Origin: a virus
Virus record (IMG/VR): IMGVR_UViG_3300035670_001095
Span: 1 to 26,552 of that record
Strand: one strand, 5' to 3'
DNA: 26,552 bases
In this document: positions 637 to 8,110 of the stretch, one piece after another
Layout of the letters: each line of letters starts with the position of its first letter
Position numbering within the stretch: the stretch's first letter is position 1
Made by a program: the position numbers and the translations under genes
Notes under the pieces: generated by a model
Told to the model about the DNA's origin: nothing
Databases searched by the model: none
The model's input: the letters and a program-made list of their open reading frames with translations, nothing else

Positions 637-2722
637 AGCCTCGATTGTTTTACAAAAAACACTTGACGCTCAAAATACGAAAATTATATGTCATCAGGGC
701 AGTTCGCGTAGCTCCAAAACTTGGAGCATTTTTCAATACTTTTTGTTGAAAGCCCTGCAGGGTGAAAAGTTTGTGCTTACGATTGCGAGAGCCAAACTCA
801 CTTGGGTAAAAGCCACCTTGCTAATGGACTTTAAGCAGTTGTGCGAGGATTACGGCATAGCCGTTTCGCCTGATGTAAACATAAATAGGCAGGAGCAGAG
901 CTACACAATAAACGGCTCGGAATTTGCTTTTTTCGGATTAGACTACGCTGAGAAGCTACACGGTCGAAAACAAACCTACACTTGGTTAAACGAGGTTATG
1001 GAGATTGACCGCAAAAGCTTTGACCAGCTCGAAATGCGTACAACAAAACAGATCGTGATTGACTACAACCCTGCTTATGATGACCATTGGGTATTTGACC
1101 TGCACAAGCGGCCCGATGTTGCGGTTATTCAATCCACTTTCAAAGATAATCCCTTTTTAGAGCAGACGATTGTCGATAAGTTATTAAGCTACGAGCCTAC
1201 TGCCGAGAATATTGCCAAAGGCACGGCAGATAACTATATGTGGGAGGTTTATGGACTTGGTAACAAAGCGAGGTTGCAAGGTGCTATCTTTACCAATTGG
1301 GATAAGGCAGAAATTCCACAGGACGCGAAGTTTCACGGCTATGGAATGGACTTCGGTTATAGTTGTGTTGCGGATAATTCTAGGGTGGAGATTATGGGTG
1401 GATATAAGCAGATAAAGGACATTTCTATAGGCGACCTTGTACTAACGAGGGGCGGATATCGGTCGGTTACTTCCACTAAAGATATGGGATATAGAAATGT
1501 ATATGAATTAGACTTTGGATATGATAAAATAATATTAACAAGCGACCATCGAATATTTACTAGTGACGGTTGGAGGCGCGTTGATGAATTATCTAGTCAA
1601 GAGGAACTATGTATACGCAAGTCGAGTTTAACGGAAGGACTTATCGGAGATACCATAATGGTAAACACTCCAATTACTTTTTCTCAACCGATGCTAGAAA
1701 GAGCAGGTTACATCGTGATATATATGAATTCTATAATGGAGAGATACCAAAGGGCTATTGCGTCCATCACCGAGATTTTAATCCGCTTAATAACAAAATC
1801 GAGAATTTGCAACTCGTTACTAAGGCAGAGCATCAGACAATCCATTACCCCGATGGGGGATTGCAGAAGATATCTAAAGGCGAAATGGATAGAATTCGAG
1901 CAGAGAATGGGTTTACGAAAGACAACTGGAATATTAGGAGAGGTAAATCTATGGATACTGCTATTAAGCGTATTAGGAAGTGCTCAGAGTGTGGCAGGGC
2001 AATTACTCCAACGAATACGCACCAGCGTTTCTGTGGTGCAAAATGTAGAAAAATTTCGAATAGCAGAAGCAGCACTAAACAATACACTTGCGAGAATTGT
2101 GCAAAGGTATTTATCGCGTCGTCGTATTACCCAAGAAATTCCTGTTCTCGCGCGTGTGCCAGTATCCTTACGGCTACTAAAAGAAAAAAGAAGAGTATTT
2201 GATATTAGCGTGGAGGGCGAACGAGAGTTTTTTGCCAATGGATTGTTAGTTCACAACTGCGACCCAACCACTCTTGTCGGAGTTTATACACACAACAATG
2301 AGGTATATCTCGATGAAGTTCTTTATCAGACTGGTATGACCAACCAAGATATAACAGACCGATTCGACACGATGGCAATCCCTCGAAATCAAATCATTGT
2401 TGCGGATAGTAGTGAGCCGAAATCGATTGAAGAAATCAGGCGGCGAGGGTACGCGATACGAGGAGCTGAAAAGGGTCAGGACTCGGTACAGTTTGGCATT
2501 GACTTACTAAAGCAGTTTAAGTTGCACCTAACACCTCGAAGCGTGAACCTAGAAAACGAATTCCGTAAATACAAATGGGCAGAGGATAGGAACGGTAAGA
2601 GCCTTAACGTACCGATTGATGAATACAATCATGCGATTGACGCTAGCCGTTACCTTGCAAGTTATGCACTTAAGGCCAAAAATAAAGTTTCTATTGTCGA
2701 TCGCCGTTCGTTTGGTATTTAG
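617..2722 (+). CDS. terL: Terminase large subunit interrupted by an intein
   Basis: This is the packaging ATPase-nuclease, 701 residues as a precursor. The ATPase domain has a Walker A-like loop GSSRSSKT at residues 28-35 and a Walker B-like YTWLNE at 121-126. The nuclease domain begins with GMDFGYS (243-249). It resumes after an intein with CDPTTLVGVY (548-557) and carries further candidate metal-ligand Asp residues at 597 (VADSSEP) and 675 (EYNHAIDAS). Removing residues 250-547 gives a 403-residue protein of normal length with the family motif DFGYSCDPT restored. The mature sequence resembles the terminase_3 type. The ATG overlaps the preceding gene by 20 nt. Packaging activity presumably depends on splicing, because the intein splits the nuclease active site. 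A second gene is nested in another frame at 1609-2202. Confidence 0.93.
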   Translation: MSQLQIKASIVLQKTLDAQNTKIICHQGSSRSSKTWSIFQYFLLKALQGEKFVLTIARAKLTWVKATLLMDFKQLCEDYGIAVSPDVNINRQEQSYTINGSEFAFFGLDYAEKLHGRKQTYTWLNEVMEIDRKSFDQLEMRTTKQIVIDYNPAYDDHWVFDLHKRPDVAVIQSTFKDNPFLEQTIVDKLLSYEPTAENIAKGTADNYMWEVYGLGNKARLQGAIFTNWDKAEIPQDAKFHGYGMDFGYSCVADNSRVEIMGGYKQIKDISIGDLVLTRGGYRSVTSTKDMGYRNVYELDFGYDKIILTSDHRIFTSDGWRRVDELSSQEELCIRKSSLTEGLIGDTIMVNTPITFSQPMLERAGYIVIYMNSIMERYQRAIASITEILIRLITKSRICNSLLRQSIRQSITPMGDCRRYLKAKWIEFEQRMGLRKTTGILGEVNLWILLLSVLGSAQSVAGQLLQRIRTSVSVVQNVEKFRIAEAALNNTLARIVQRYLSRRRITQEIPVLARVPVSLRLLKEKRRVFDISVEGEREFFANGLLVHNCDPTTLVGVYTHNNEVYLDEVLYQTGMTNQDITDRFDTMAIPRNQIIVADSSEPKSIEEIRRRGYAIRGAEKGQDSVQFGIDLLKQFKLHLTPRSVNLENEFRKYKWAEDRNGKSLNVPIDEYNHAIDASRYLASYALKAKNKVSIVDRRSFGI
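1364..2257 (+). mobile_element. Intein in TerL (298 residues)
   Basis: The protein-splicing element starts with Cys250 of the precursor (CVADNSRVEI, block A) and has the block B motif TSDH (T308-H311). It ends with block F/G residues VFDISVEGE...FFANGLLVHN, with the His546-Asn547 pair followed by Cys548 as the +1 nucleophile. All residues expected for standard class 1 splicing are visible. The splicing domain is split into residues 250-330 and about 527-547. The linker between them has no LAGLIDADG motif or other recognisable domain in this frame, but its DNA encodes an HNH endonuclease in the -1 frame. The intein is AT-rich: 15 G+C of 60 at 1501-1560, against 25 of 60 in the extein at 1261-1320. 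This fits acquisition from elsewhere. Confidence 0.93.
1609..2202 (+). CDS. HNH homing endonuclease nested out of frame in the TerL intein
   Basis: Encodes 197 residues in the -1 frame relative to terL. Residues 1-80 form a classic intron/intein-type HNH domain: LHRDIYEFYNGEIPKGY, then the core VHHRDFNPLNNKIENLQLV and AEHQTIH, supplying the H-N-H metal and catalytic residues. Two Cys4 zinc-finger-like units follow, CSEC...FCGAKC and CENC...CSRAC, probably for DNA recognition. A TAG in this frame at 1594-1596 shows it is not a fusion to the N-terminal intein half. The ATG is preceded by AAGAGGA (about 1599-1605), an SD-like sequence with short spacing. The TGA stop at 2200-2202 falls exactly where intein block F begins. 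By family, it would cut intein-less terL alleles to drive homing. Confidence 0.88.
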   Translation: MYTQVEFNGRTYRRYHNGKHSNYFFSTDARKSRLHRDIYEFYNGEIPKGYCVHHRDFNPLNNKIENLQLVTKAEHQTIHYPDGGLQKISKGEMDRIRAENGFTKDNWNIRRGKSMDTAIKRIRKCSECGRAITPTNTHQRFCGAKCRKISNSRSSTKQYTCENCAKVFIASSYYPRNSCSRACASILTATKRKKKSI

Positions 2723-2769: not shown

Positions 2770-4182
2770 ATGCAGAATTATTTAACAATGCCAGTTGGCA
2801 CTTTGCCTACAAAATCCACGATTGACGAGGCTATTAAGTGGAACGAGCTGCTAAAATACTACTACGATAAAGCCGACAATTACTACGGCGGCGATCACCC
2901 TGTCTTGTATCGTACGAAGACAATCGCACTTAAAAATAACAAACTCGTAACAAACCACTGTAAATACATCACGGATATAAATGTTGGATACCTGCTAGGC
3001 AATCCAGTCGATTATCAGACTGCAGGCGACCTAGAGGATACCGCAATCGCTCCTGTTCTTGACCTGTACCGCCGCCAAACTGTAGAGGGTGTAGACACCG
3101 ATATCGCTATGGATTGCTCTATATTCGGTCGGGCTTACGAATATGTATTCATAAATACAAAGGGTGATACACGCTCGGCTAAAATTGATCCACGGAATTG
3201 CGTTGTTGTTTATGACGATACAATCGAGAGATTGCCATTATGGGCGGTTATGTACCAGTACGGTGACGGACAACAGATAGAGAAATTGCAAGTTGTTACA
3301 GTTGACGAGGTTATAACCTACGATACAAAGGGCGGTTCGTATACCGAGAAATCCAGACTACCTCACAATTTTGGTGATGTACCTGTTGTTGAATACTGGA
3401 ATAACGACCGTACGCAAGGCGACTTTACACAAGTTACTACGCTGGTAAATGCCTACAACTTCCTGATGAGTGACCGTGTAAACGATAAAGAGCAGTTAGT
3501 TGAAAGCATTTTGGCTATGTACGGCTATGGACTTGAAGAGGGGCAACGAGAGCAGTTGTTGCTTTATAGAACGCTTGAGAACTTACCAAATGACGGTAAA
3601 ACGGAGTACCTTACAAAGCAATTAAACGAAGCTGATATTGAGATACTAAAAAACGCTATTGAGCAGGATATTCATAAGATTTCTATGACTCCAAATATGA
3701 GTGATGCCAACTTTGTAGGTAATTCAAGTGGCGTTGCTATTGCTTATAAGCTTCTACCGTTTGAGCAGAACATTAAGAATAAGCAAAGAGCTATGGAGGC
3801 TGGACTTCGCAAGCGTTTTGAACTCTATGCAAATCACCTCGCTTACTTAAAGAAAATGAGCGAAATCGAAATATCTGATGTTGAGATTATATTCAAGAGA
3901 AACCTACCTAAGAACGACCTAGAAACCTCACAAATGATTGCCAACTTACGAGGTGTCATTTCTGCTGAAACTGGTATATCACAATTGTCGTTCGTTAAGG
4001 ACGCTTCCGCTGAAGTAGAGAAAGCGAGAGAAGAGGGATTGCAGGGTATGAACGCTGAAATGCCAGAATTCGGTACGCCTGATGCTACACTCGAAACACT
4101 AGAAGAAAAGGGACTGGTTGAAGCTACAGCAAAGCAGGATAGTTTGCTGACTAAACTTAAAAACCTAATGGGTGGACAATAA
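2770..4182 (+). CDS. Portal protein (SPP1 gp6-like)
   Basis: A 470-residue portal protein, the dodecameric ring at the capsid vertex through which DNA is packaged and the head joins the tail. It resembles the phage_prot_Gp6/SPP1 portal family. The N-terminal segment (YYYDKADNYYGG, then NNKLVTNHCKYITDINVGYLLGNPVDY at about residues 30-85) is typical. A central clip/stem region carries DKEQLVESILAMYGYG, and MSDANFVGNSSGVAIAYKL (about 315-333) is the usual portal signature before the crown. The C-terminal 70 residues are acidic and probably flexible. The length is normal. No SD sequence precedes the ATG. A second ATG 6 nt upstream is out of frame. The 3' end overlaps the next gene by 11 nt. Confidence 0.93.
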   Translation: MQNYLTMPVGTLPTKSTIDEAIKWNELLKYYYDKADNYYGGDHPVLYRTKTIALKNNKLVTNHCKYITDINVGYLLGNPVDYQTAGDLEDTAIAPVLDLYRRQTVEGVDTDIAMDCSIFGRAYEYVFINTKGDTRSAKIDPRNCVVVYDDTIERLPLWAVMYQYGDGQQIEKLQVVTVDEVITYDTKGGSYTEKSRLPHNFGDVPVVEYWNNDRTQGDFTQVTTLVNAYNFLMSDRVNDKEQLVESILAMYGYGLEEGQREQLLLYRTLENLPNDGKTEYLTKQLNEADIEILKNAIEQDIHKISMTPNMSDANFVGNSSGVAIAYKLLPFEQNIKNKQRAMEAGLRKRFELYANHLAYLKKMSEIEISDVEIIFKRNLPKNDLETSQMIANLRGVISAETGISQLSFVKDASAEVEKAREEGLQGMNAEMPEFGTPDATLETLEEKGLVEATAKQDSLLTKLKNLMGGQ

Positions 4183-7100
4183 ACTAAAGCAAGTTATTGA
4201 CCGCCTCGAATTAGAGAAAAAACTGACCACGCTTGCGGAATTGACCACCGAAGCACTTGCAAAAGTAAAATCGGTTTTTTCTAAAGAAATCGAGCGAGTC
4301 GATGGCGAAATCATAAAGCTAGACGAAAAGATTGAAACCTCAGTTACCGAGCTTATTTCGGTTACTGACGCAATCACCTCTGATGCGGTTAAAACGAACG
4401 AAACTATTCAAGATGTAAAAGCAGAGGTAGCGAGTGTGGATAGCGACTTGCAGGCGACCAAGCGCGATTTGAGCGACAAGATTGCAAAGGTCAAGGCGAT
4501 CAAAGGGGATAGAGGTGAGAGAGGCGAAAAAGGAGATCGCGGCGAGAGAGGTTTGAGAGGTGAGAGAGGGGTCGCTGGGGCAGATGGGCGCGATGGTATC
4601 GATGGCGTTACAACTACGATTGAAACGAAAGTTCCTTTGACTCGTGACGATGTTGTAAAGCTTGCAGGCGACTTGACCGAGTTGCCGAGAGAATTAAAAA
4701 TGACAACAAAGGCGATAAGAGATTATCGAGAGGAAACGATACGCATAGCCAGCGAGGTTATACCTGCAGGCGGCACGACAATACATAACGAGCTATCGGG
4801 GCGAGATGCTGCAGCTACGCACCCTGCCAGCTCAATTCAGTATGGTGATGGGAATGTAGGCGAGATACTAGACAATCGGGTTATTAGTGTCGATGGGCAA
4901 ACTGGCGCGGTGGATTTGTCAGATACATACCAGCCAAAAGAAGACCAGCGGCTTTCTACGACTGACGAGGTGGCGTTTACTTCAGTCACTCTTGTAAATC
5001 CTAATGCCGAGCCTGTAGGCAAATTATGGTGGAATGAGGTCGATGGGACTGTAGATATATCGCTCAAGAATGGGGCGACCTTGCAGACTGGTCAAGAGTT
5101 GCATTTCTATGGCAAGGCTTCGGGCAATATCTCTAACGGCGATGTATTGCAGTTTGCAGGCGTGCAGGGTGACCATATTCTAATGAAGAAGGCAGTTGGA
5201 GCTGAAATTGCTACGCACCCTGAGTATCTTGTAGGTATTGCAACGCAAAATATCACGAACGGAGAGTTTGGCTATGTTACTTGGTTTGGTAAGGTGAATG
5301 GCGTGTTTACAACTGGATTTACCGCTGGTGATATTTTGTATTTCAACACTGACACTTCGACCCTGCAGAATACACAACCCGATGCCCCTTTGCGCCGAAT
5401 TATCGTGGCAAGTGTCATTAAGGAGGCTACAGGGGGTGCTGAAAACGGAACTTTTCTAGTTCGCCCGACTTGGGGGTTTAGGTTTGCAGACCTAGATGAT
5501 GTAGACGGAACTGATCCAGTCGCAGGTGATATACCGCAATATCAATCAGATGGTACATGGAGCAGAACAATACTAACAGATGTCAATTTTAATAGCCAAA
5601 CGGCTATAGCTATGGGAATGGAGAATGGTACTACACTTCCTAGCAGTCCGGCAGAAGGTCAATGGTTTTTACTGAAGGCAACGAATAAGACGATTCTATA
5701 TGAGTATATTAAAGGGATATGGTATGCTACAAGAAGTTTCGGAACTATGACTTTGTATGTTGACCCTGTACTTGGTACTGATAGCTCTGAAAAAGGCTTT
5801 GGGACTGGTGCAGATGCCTACAAAACAATGCAATATGCTTACAATCAGATACCACCTATTGTGGATAGTATAGTAACCATTAACCTAGCAGACGGAACTT
5901 ATACATTCACAAGTACATGGGCATTAACGCCTAGACTTGTTCTAACAGCTGGTGCCTATGTGACTATAAGGGGTAGTACAACATTCCCTACAGTAGATAG
6001 CGGAACTGCAACGAGTGTTACGAATGGTAGCGTGTCTGCAGGTGCGACGATCACTGATACGACAAAAACATGGGTAGTAGACTCGTTAGAAGGTAAAAGG
6101 ATAACCATTAATGGAGTTAACTACCTGATAGATAGTAATACAGCTAACACGATAACAATACTGGGGTATTTCACAGTAACACCAACGAACTTGGCCTATA
6201 CAATTTCTACGCAAGGGGCAATTATAAAGAGGTCGTCAGCAGTCAACTTTTACTCCTTGCAGACTGGTATGTCATTTTTGAGGTTTGAGAACATCAAGTT
6301 TGAAATGCCATTGACTGGTAACATAGGGTCAGGCAATGGGGCGACACATAACTTCATCTGGTGCTGGTTTGATTTACAGCAGACTAATGGCTCAGCTTTA
6401 CTCACAACTATTACTCAAATTATTCTTTCTCTTACGAACTGCTATGCTAAAAAATCCGTCGCAGTTAGCAGCAACCCATTTTTTGCTATATCGGGGTTGT
6501 CATCGGTAAGTATTACTAACTCGTTATTAGTAGGCGCACCATCAACAACGGTAAGTGGGGCGTTACAATTGCAAGGAGGAACTTCGCTTATCTCGGTAGC
6601 ATCTATTTACAAGAATTGGGTAGGTAGGGCTGTATCTCTGCAAACTTCATATTGGGCTGCAGGTGCTGTAAGTTCATTCATGAATCAATTCAAGAACAAT
6701 GGAATTGGATTGGAACTTTTAACAGGTAGCGTAATTCAGATAGATACTGCTACGATGTACTCAGGTAATACCTATGACAAGTTTCATAATTGGTCTTATG
6801 GCAACACTGCTCTTACTGCAGTACAGAACAATCCAACATTGACCATATCACAACTTGCGGGGCAGACAGCCAACTTGATAGAAATGAAGAATTCGGTTGG
6901 TACACTTACTAACTATACAGATATTGATGGCGATTTGCATACTGATAAGGTAGAATCATTAAACGGCTCATTGTCATTAGTAACTTCAGAAGTAAAGGTC
7001 GGAAAACAAACGAACGGTACACAAAATGACATATCTGTAGTAGATACGATAGGCTCTAATATAGATGGCGGAGATTTAGTTATAACAGGACAGAAATCCA

Positions 7101-8110
7101 CAGGAACTGGTAGCGGTGGGGATATTGTATTTGAAGTAGGGGGAATAGGTGCAGGTGGTAGTGATTCTATTACACTAGGTAATCAGCAGTCTCTCATAAA
7201 GTCGATTGCATCAAGTTATACACAGGCACACACGATAGCCAACAATCCTGATAGAATTATGTTTGTGCAATTATATTATGTTGCTACGGTACCACGAGCA
7301 ACAGCAGTTACATACAATGGGGTAGCAATGACTGAGTTAGCTTCGCAGGTGTCTGGTACGTCAGTACAACAGCTATGGTATTTAAAAAATCCAGATGTAG
7401 GTACTTTCAATGTAGTGGTTACTAATAATACGGTGGCGGCAGCTAGAATAGGTATAGTAGATTATTATAATGTAGCACAGAATAACACATTTGGAAGTAG
7501 CTACAGCAATGCTGTAAATAGTACCACTGGTATGAGTGCAACTCTTGTACCCGAAACACCGAACCAATTATCAATCGCATTTTATACAAATGCAGGTGGT
7601 GGGGTGGTGGTTACTCCGAGTGATACACAGGTATATTTATTAGGTAGTACAGCCACACCTGTTGGGGTAATTGCACACAATTATGAGCTGAATGGTATAG
7701 ACCTTAGCTTTACATATACTGATGGGTCACTTCGCAGACAAGCTATATATGGGGTGGTACTTAGACCATCTAGTGAAAACATAAATGATGGTAGCGAAGT
7801 TTTAAGAATCACGAAAGACGGGATAAAGACACTAGGATTCTCACAATCTGTAGTGGTAAAAAGTGCAGATTGTACTCTAGATAAGAATGATGACATTGTG
7901 ATATTTGACACTTCAGCCACAGCTACGCTACCTCTAGCCACAGGGAGCGGTAAGATTTATAAGATAAAATCTGAGAGTGGGAGCGGTGCTAATGTAATAG
8001 TAACAGCAAGCGGAACTGATACGATAGATGGCGACATTAGTACAATGGTAACAGATGGTAATTCACCTACGCTTGTAGACTATGCAGGTGGTAAGTGGGC
8101 TTTAATTTAG
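4172..8110 (+). CDS. Large fibre/spike structural protein with collagen-like stalk
   Basis: Encodes 1312 residues with modular fibre architecture. Residues 1-110 are a coiled coil. Residues 112-145 are eleven Gly-X-Y triplets (GDR, GER, GEK and so on), a collagen-like stalk. Residues 225-260 carry VDGQTGAVDLSDTY, a common fibre shaft motif. Residues 300-470 are beta-rich with repeated Gly-Asp turns. From about 526 (MTLYVDPVLGTD) to 910 it reads like a right-handed beta-helix of the pectin-lyase type. The C-terminal 90 residues resemble the closing domain of many tail fibres. It starts with GTG inside the portal gene. Position between portal and MuF is unusual and suggests a head fibre or a receptor-binding module inserted here. 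No catalytic residues can be assigned, so depolymerase activity is only possible. Confidence 0.82.
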   Translation: MDNKLKQVIDRLELEKKLTTLAELTTEALAKVKSVFSKEIERVDGEIIKLDEKIETSVTELISVTDAITSDAVKTNETIQDVKAEVASVDSDLQATKRDLSDKIAKVKAIKGDRGERGEKGDRGERGLRGERGVAGADGRDGIDGVTTTIETKVPLTRDDVVKLAGDLTELPRELKMTTKAIRDYREETIRIASEVIPAGGTTIHNELSGRDAAATHPASSIQYGDGNVGEILDNRVISVDGQTGAVDLSDTYQPKEDQRLSTTDEVAFTSVTLVNPNAEPVGKLWWNEVDGTVDISLKNGATLQTGQELHFYGKASGNISNGDVLQFAGVQGDHILMKKAVGAEIATHPEYLVGIATQNITNGEFGYVTWFGKVNGVFTTGFTAGDILYFNTDTSTLQNTQPDAPLRRIIVASVIKEATGGAENGTFLVRPTWGFRFADLDDVDGTDPVAGDIPQYQSDGTWSRTILTDVNFNSQTAIAMGMENGTTLPSSPAEGQWFLLKATNKTILYEYIKGIWYATRSFGTMTLYVDPVLGTDSSEKGFGTGADAYKTMQYAYNQIPPIVDSIVTINLADGTYTFTSTWALTPRLVLTAGAYVTIRGSTTFPTVDSGTATSVTNGSVSAGATITDTTKTWVVDSLEGKRITINGVNYLIDSNTANTITILGYFTVTPTNLAYTISTQGAIIKRSSAVNFYSLQTGMSFLRFENIKFEMPLTGNIGSGNGATHNFIWCWFDLQQTNGSALLTTITQIILSLTNCYAKKSVAVSSNPFFAISGLSSVSITNSLLVGAPSTTVSGALQLQGGTSLISVASIYKNWVGRAVSLQTSYWAAGAVSSFMNQFKNNGIGLELLTGSVIQIDTATMYSGNTYDKFHNWSYGNTALTAVQNNPTLTISQLAGQTANLIEMKNSVGTLTNYTDIDGDLHTDKVESLNGSLSLVTSEVKVGKQTNGTQNDISVVDTIGSNIDGGDLVITGQKSTGTGSGGDIVFEVGGIGAGGSDSITLGNQQSLIKSIASSYTQAHTIANNPDRIMFVQLYYVATVPRATAVTYNGVAMTELASQVSGTSVQQLWYLKNPDVGTFNVVVTNNTVAAARIGIVDYYNVAQNNTFGSSYSNAVNSTTGMSATLVPETPNQLSIAFYTNAGGGVVVTPSDTQVYLLGSTATPVGVIAHNYELNGIDLSFTYTDGSLRRQAIYGVVLRPSSENINDGSEVLRITKDGIKTLGFSQSVVVKSADCTLDKNDDIVIFDTSATATLPLATGSGKIYKIKSESGSGANVIVTASGTDTIDGDISTMVTDGNSPTLVDYAGGKWALI

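Follow-up and report, generated by a model that had tools for sequence, protein, structure and literature searches.

A putative HNH homing endonuclease gene nested out of frame in a phage terminase intein belongs to a recurrent architecture

Textbook inteins are one protein made of two fused domains. The terL gene (terminase large subunit) of the virus record IMGVR_UViG_3300035670_001095 raises the question of whether the splicing and homing machineries of an intein can also be encoded by two overlapping genes. We analysed positions 1 to 26,552 of this record (26,552 nucleotides, hereafter the window), in which all terL, intein, and HNH features given below lie on the plus strand. The terL open reading frame (ORF) spans 617–2722 and encodes a precursor of 701 aa, in which N-extein, intein, and C-extein share a single frame, with Pfam matches to Terminase_3, Terminase_3C, and Intein_splicing. 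The TerL N-extein (617–1363) ends in the nuclease motif GMDFGYS, the 298-aa intein (1364–2257) runs from C1 to a terminal HN followed by a +1 Cys, and the C-extein (2258–2722, stop included) begins with CDPTTL. Intein-less homologues read DFGYTNDPT at this point; compared in this way (DFGYS/CDP vs DFGYTNDP), the intein is an in-frame insertion into a conserved host motif. The residues of a class 1 intein are present (C1, T59, H62, H297-N298, and the +1 Cys), and C1, T59, H62, and N298 are invariant over 50 aligned inteins. The N-terminal splicing half, IntN (1364–1612; blocks A and B, with TSDH), and the C-terminal half, IntC (2192–2257; blocks F and G, VFDISVEGEREFFANGLLVHN), were both modeled by AlphaFold with high confidence (predicted local distance difference test, pLDDT, 96–98). 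The predicted intein has a Hint fold and fits the gp41-1 intein (TMt 0.87, root-mean-square deviation 1.7), which, of the solved inteins, matches best in sequence and is among the best in fold. Unlike the invariant splicing residues, the linker between the halves (1613–2191) is not conserved across the 50 inteins; it is open in the intein frame, and its model confidence is low (pLDDT mostly 41–75).

The DNA of this linker contains a second gene (1609–2202) of 197 aa with its own ATG, which lies in the −1 frame (offset +2) relative to terL and the intein. A Shine-Dalgarno (SD)-like AAGAGGA (1599–1605) is located 3–4 nt upstream of the ATG. The encoded protein matches Pfam HNH_3 (E 8e-16), and its catalytic domain covers HNH residues 33–76 (1705–1836), followed by two Cys4 zinc-binding motifs (C125, C128, C142, and C146, 1981–2046; C161, C164, C179, and C183, 2089–2157). 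Together with these motifs, the invariant H53, H54, N66, and H75 place it among the HNH homing endonucleases of the HNH_3 type, and its AlphaFold model has a pLDDT of 91. The stop codon, TGA (2200–2202), is formed by the Phe-Asp codons (TTT GAT) of block F. Upstream, a TAG at 1594 closes the HNH frame and leaves just 12 nt open before the ATG; thus, the HNH is not joined to the N half of the intein. No endonuclease in frame with the splicing halves was found in the window, where the HNH has offset +2, or among the loci examined. A preliminary description of the window, made from its letters alone, had proposed the same coordinates for both ORFs, intact N and C splicing blocks, a linker meaningless in the intein frame, and a full HNH gene with two zinc fingers, its own start, SD-like site, and a stop at block F; all of this agreed with our ORF reading, Pfam matches, and alignments. 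The arrangement is very probably that of a mobile intein in which a gene of its own, nested in another frame of the linker DNA, encodes the homing endonuclease.

Searches with the HNH protein gave matches in the TerL genes of phages unrelated to one another. The HNH is likewise out of frame, with the same offset as in the window, in Acinetobacter phage Highwayman, Tetrasphaera phage TJE1, LS06, and one gut phage; Highwayman and TJE1 are among the cultured phages that carry nested copies. We then read, using profiles, the viral contigs retrieved by scanning with the splicing halves only, plus the loci already in hand. All 64 contiguous inteins with an HNH carried it nested at offset +2 and none carried it fused in frame, and 22 inteins with the same splicing halves, a form that the preliminary description had suggested looking for, were mini-inteins without the HNH. 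In a second retrieval, which used HNH proteins as queries and was independent of the intein blocks, nested cases were again the majority. The single case of the preliminary description is the rule in its intein family: all scans yielded approximately 129 nested entries (a few contigs were fetched twice), representing about 125 phage loci that group into 89 clusters at 60% HNH identity. Two nested loci, L157 and L179, use the other offset; eight entries have a broken intein frame, and fewer than 20 HNHs are free-standing, a number that includes some located at a contig end. The hosts of the nested inteins are mainly TerL proteins of several superfamilies, with one aminotransferase. A plasmid search gave one weak, partial match, and genome contigs gave five loci only, too few to judge how frequent the layout is in bacterial genomes. 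In L063 (922–4248), one terL ORF contains two inteins, each with its own nested HNH. The PHROG family phrog_30251 (“terminase large subunit”) matches 48 of 68 nested-intein ORFs (best E 0; set L005–L190), suggesting that intein and nonsense linker may be built into this TerL profile.

To what extent the open intein frame is selected was judged from the number of stops expected when synonymous codons are shuffled within each HNH gene, with the protein and its codon use kept. In the 89 clusters of nested HNHs, no intein-frame stop was observed vs 218.5 expected, and the third frame had 1775 stops vs 1821 expected. Free-standing HNH genes (130 vs 126.7) and split-intein HNH genes (39 vs 36.1) were at expectation, and L157 and L179 had no stops vs 20.5 expected in that other frame. 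The proteins themselves differ: Met accounts for 0.78% of nested HNHs vs 1.35%, and it precedes an A-starting codon in 0 of 135 cases vs 15 of 54 in free and split HNHs, a pair that would force a TGA in the intein frame. These results indicate that the openness of the intein frame is under selection and that this constraint extends to the composition of the HNH protein. Of the preliminary estimate, the selection held, and the chance of 7e-5 for an open frame did not: it assumed equal base use, and given the HNH codons the value is 0.010. The HNH frame was constrained as well, as a comparison of substitutions by codon position, also suggested beforehand, showed; a lack of such constraint had been named in the preliminary description as a refuting result. 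Between related loci, substitutions ranked 3 > 1 > 2 by HNH codon position (e.g., 18, 8, and 42 at positions 1, 2, and 3 between L068 and L073), with an identity of 0.87 in the HNH frame vs 0.68 in the intein frame. Among 53 nested HNH proteins, the catalytic and zinc residues hardly vary, and H35, H53, H54, N66, H75, C125, C142, and C146 are invariant. This pattern indicates purifying selection on the HNH frame. Collectively, the comparisons indicate that the nested layout is a real, selected, and recurrent architecture, in which two frames of one stretch of DNA encode an intein and, as a gene of its own, an HNH homing endonuclease.

Evidence for mobility came from pairs of loci and from empty alleles. 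The window and L026 share the insertion site and are 56% identical in the HNH and 54% in IntN vs 26% in the TerL exteins, which indicates that intein and HNH move together horizontally. The element of L068 has empty alleles at 97–99% TerL amino acid identity and 91–92% DNA identity, with the junction DHA/CDAM when occupied and DDG/LDAM when empty.

With regard to expression, an SD was found upstream of 44 of 88 nested starts (e.g., AAAGGAGGATATATTATG in L186) vs 14 of 103 background windows and 8 of 15 free genes, and in-phase slippery heptamers near the junction were found at 6 of 89 loci vs 80 of 584 background windows, with none in the window itself. The enrichment of SDs and the lack of enrichment of slippery heptamers make internal initiation on the terL message the likeliest route to the HNH protein. 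The block F codons VY[DN]/VF[DN] yield TGA or TAA in the −1 frame if the aromatic codon ends in T, and in 29 of 80 clusters they form the HNH stop exactly; the −1 frame may dominate because block F supplies the stop in that frame.

Several points weigh against these interpretations. A Foldseek search of the whole HNH model against the Protein Data Bank gave no confident match, and the HNH assignment is based on two sequence comparisons, with Pfam HNH_3 and, as a weak match, with the HNH homing endonuclease 1u3e. The SD-like site of the window is close to the ATG, and half of the nested HNH genes have no recognisable SD. The window HNH alone is expected to contain 3.09 intein-frame stops (P of none = 0.010), and the label “nested” itself presupposes an open frame, on which the zero stop count is conditional; therefore, the argument is carried by the controls and by the 64 of 64 inteins retrieved via the intein blocks. 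Coincidence, with HNH DNA lacking intein-frame stops although nothing selects for this, could account for the window or for the GC-rich TJE1 (P of no intein-frame stop = 0.21) taken singly, but it is refuted at the family level by the absence of stops in 89 clusters, with free and split relatives at expectation, and we consider chance overlap scarcely credible. Even less credit is due to a sequencing or assembly error that displaced an ordinary in-frame HNH intein, in favour of which no evidence was found. The preliminary description had named a single-base error as the finding that would overturn it; a fusion in frame would in fact require a pair of indels that compensate each other, together with removal of the stop of the HNH gene, and such errors are refuted by the recurrence of the same offset in many assemblies and in cultured phages, across the approximately 125 loci.

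Programmed −1 ribosomal frameshifting, yielding a TerL-IntN-HNH fusion, would explain why the HNH lies in the −1 frame at all nested loci except two. However, the slippery heptamers are not commoner near the junction than in the background, the window HNH frame is open for 12 nt only upstream of its ATG, SDs are enriched at nested starts, L157 and L179 use the other offset, and the stop supplied by the block F codons is a simpler cause of the offset; frameshifting is accordingly very unlikely in our view. Slightly less remote, but still improbable, is a degenerate element whose intein splices and whose HNH is a dead passenger or acts in trans elsewhere; against it stand the conserved catalytic and zinc residues, the purifying selection on the HNH frame, the joint movement of IntN and HNH, and the existence of empty alleles.

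A nested gene in a mobile intein suggests the following cycle. Ribosomes that start at the terL ATG would read on in the intein frame and produce the 701-aa precursor, whose Hint halves are predicted to join the TerL exteins and discard the nonsense linker. Translation initiated at the internal ATG (1609), downstream of the SD-like site, would yield a free 197-aa HNH zinc-finger endonuclease. The predicted target of this enzyme is the insertion site in terL alleles that lack the intein; once cut, such an allele would acquire the whole element through repair. Selection would preserve the HNH protein and, in the intein frame, merely forbid stops. What can be read directly from the DNA comprises both frames, the intact catalytic residues of both machines, selection for the open frame, constraint on the HNH, joint movement, and empty alleles.

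Split relatives, with IntN and IntC on separate ORFs, were found at L013–L015, L143, L171, and L189; in the window, the two halves lie in a single open frame. In Vibrio phages 1.245.O and 1.238 and in L143, L171, and L189, an HNH of the same family lies between IntN and IntC, the intein frame has 10–14 stops, and IntC has its own start codons. These split forms are placed in separate parts of the unrooted HNH tree and account for at least three origins, suggesting that split versions arose repeatedly. Since the HNH is already a separate gene, stops in the intein frame would leave IntN and IntC as trans-splicing halves; the direction from nested to split is inferred, given that the tree is unrooted. 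We tentatively propose, as a possibility somewhat short of even, that mobile inteins have a third and widespread architecture, the nested one, which divides splicing and homing between overlapping genes and forms a bridge to the split inteins found in nature. The terL gene of Vibrio phage 1.245.O (L013, NC_055736.1 3792–9370) carries two inteins. One is complete and, as read by eye, seems to have a LAGLIDADG endonuclease in frame; the other is split, and the HNH separates its two halves. In Lactobacillus phage CL2 (L023, 455–2587), a free HNH follows what seems to be an IntN-like block at the end of TerL, and no IntC was seen. In L144 (2400–3712), a free HNH directly downstream of terL is followed by an apparent duplicated TerL C-terminus, as if the insertion had restored the end of the terL gene.

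The layout shares features with several known systems. In large inteins with a fused LAGLIDADG or HNH endonuclease, Hint halves also flank the endonuclease between blocks B and F, and the homing site is the insertion point; theirs is an in-frame domain of the spliced-out protein, whereas here it is a −1-frame gene over a nonsense linker. Fractured genes, in which an endonuclease gene separates the two parts of a split intein, were reportedly described by Dassa et al. in 2009, a study that PMC11766414 cites. In split inteins such as gp41-1 and NrdJ-1, the endonuclease is likewise a separate gene between IntN and IntC, but no continuous intein frame remains and each half is encoded by its own gene, whereas here one open precursor spans the HNH. 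A parallel in frame usage is the ShiLan domain, an HNH of ~195 aa with zinc fingers in a phage methylase gene, which is out of frame and leaves no stops in the methylase host frame (Arsenault et al., 2025, PMC11855218). Both are out-of-frame zinc-finger HNHs of similar size in a stop-free host frame of a phage gene; ShiLan is an insertion without intein blocks that is thought to stay in the methylase, whereas the window has a TerL host and intact splicing blocks, so that the lack of splicing domains typical of ShiLan does not apply. An environmental virus contig, L176 (2564–3556), carries a ShiLan-like, out-of-frame HNH in a DNA methylase ORF without intein blocks. Mobile group I introns with an endonuclease ORF also combine a splicing element and a free endonuclease in shared DNA, but splicing here is predicted at the protein level. 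A group I intron was considered for the window and rejected, as positions 600–2800 gave no Rfam match at E up to 1 that would point to a ribozyme core. Among the papers that it covered, our literature search found no out-of-frame endonuclease in a contiguous intein, although a preprint on non-canonical actinobacteriophage inteins (10.1101/2025.01.02.630785) may hold one; published out-of-frame HNHs were found only for non-splicing inserts (ShiLan).

The layout looks like a widespread and overlooked way of building a mobile element. With a free homing enzyme encoded by DNA that also encodes a disposable linker, splicing and homing could evolve separately without making the element longer. The nested loci add many cases of gene overlap in which the sole demand on one frame is that it remain open, and they show that an endonuclease has gone unannotated in many terL genes. 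They also suggest a way, open to experiment, in which natural split inteins, major tools of biotechnology, may arise. Elsewhere in the window (4172–8110), a 1312-aa ORF with a collagen-like GERGEKGDRGERG stretch probably encodes a tail fibre or adhesin.
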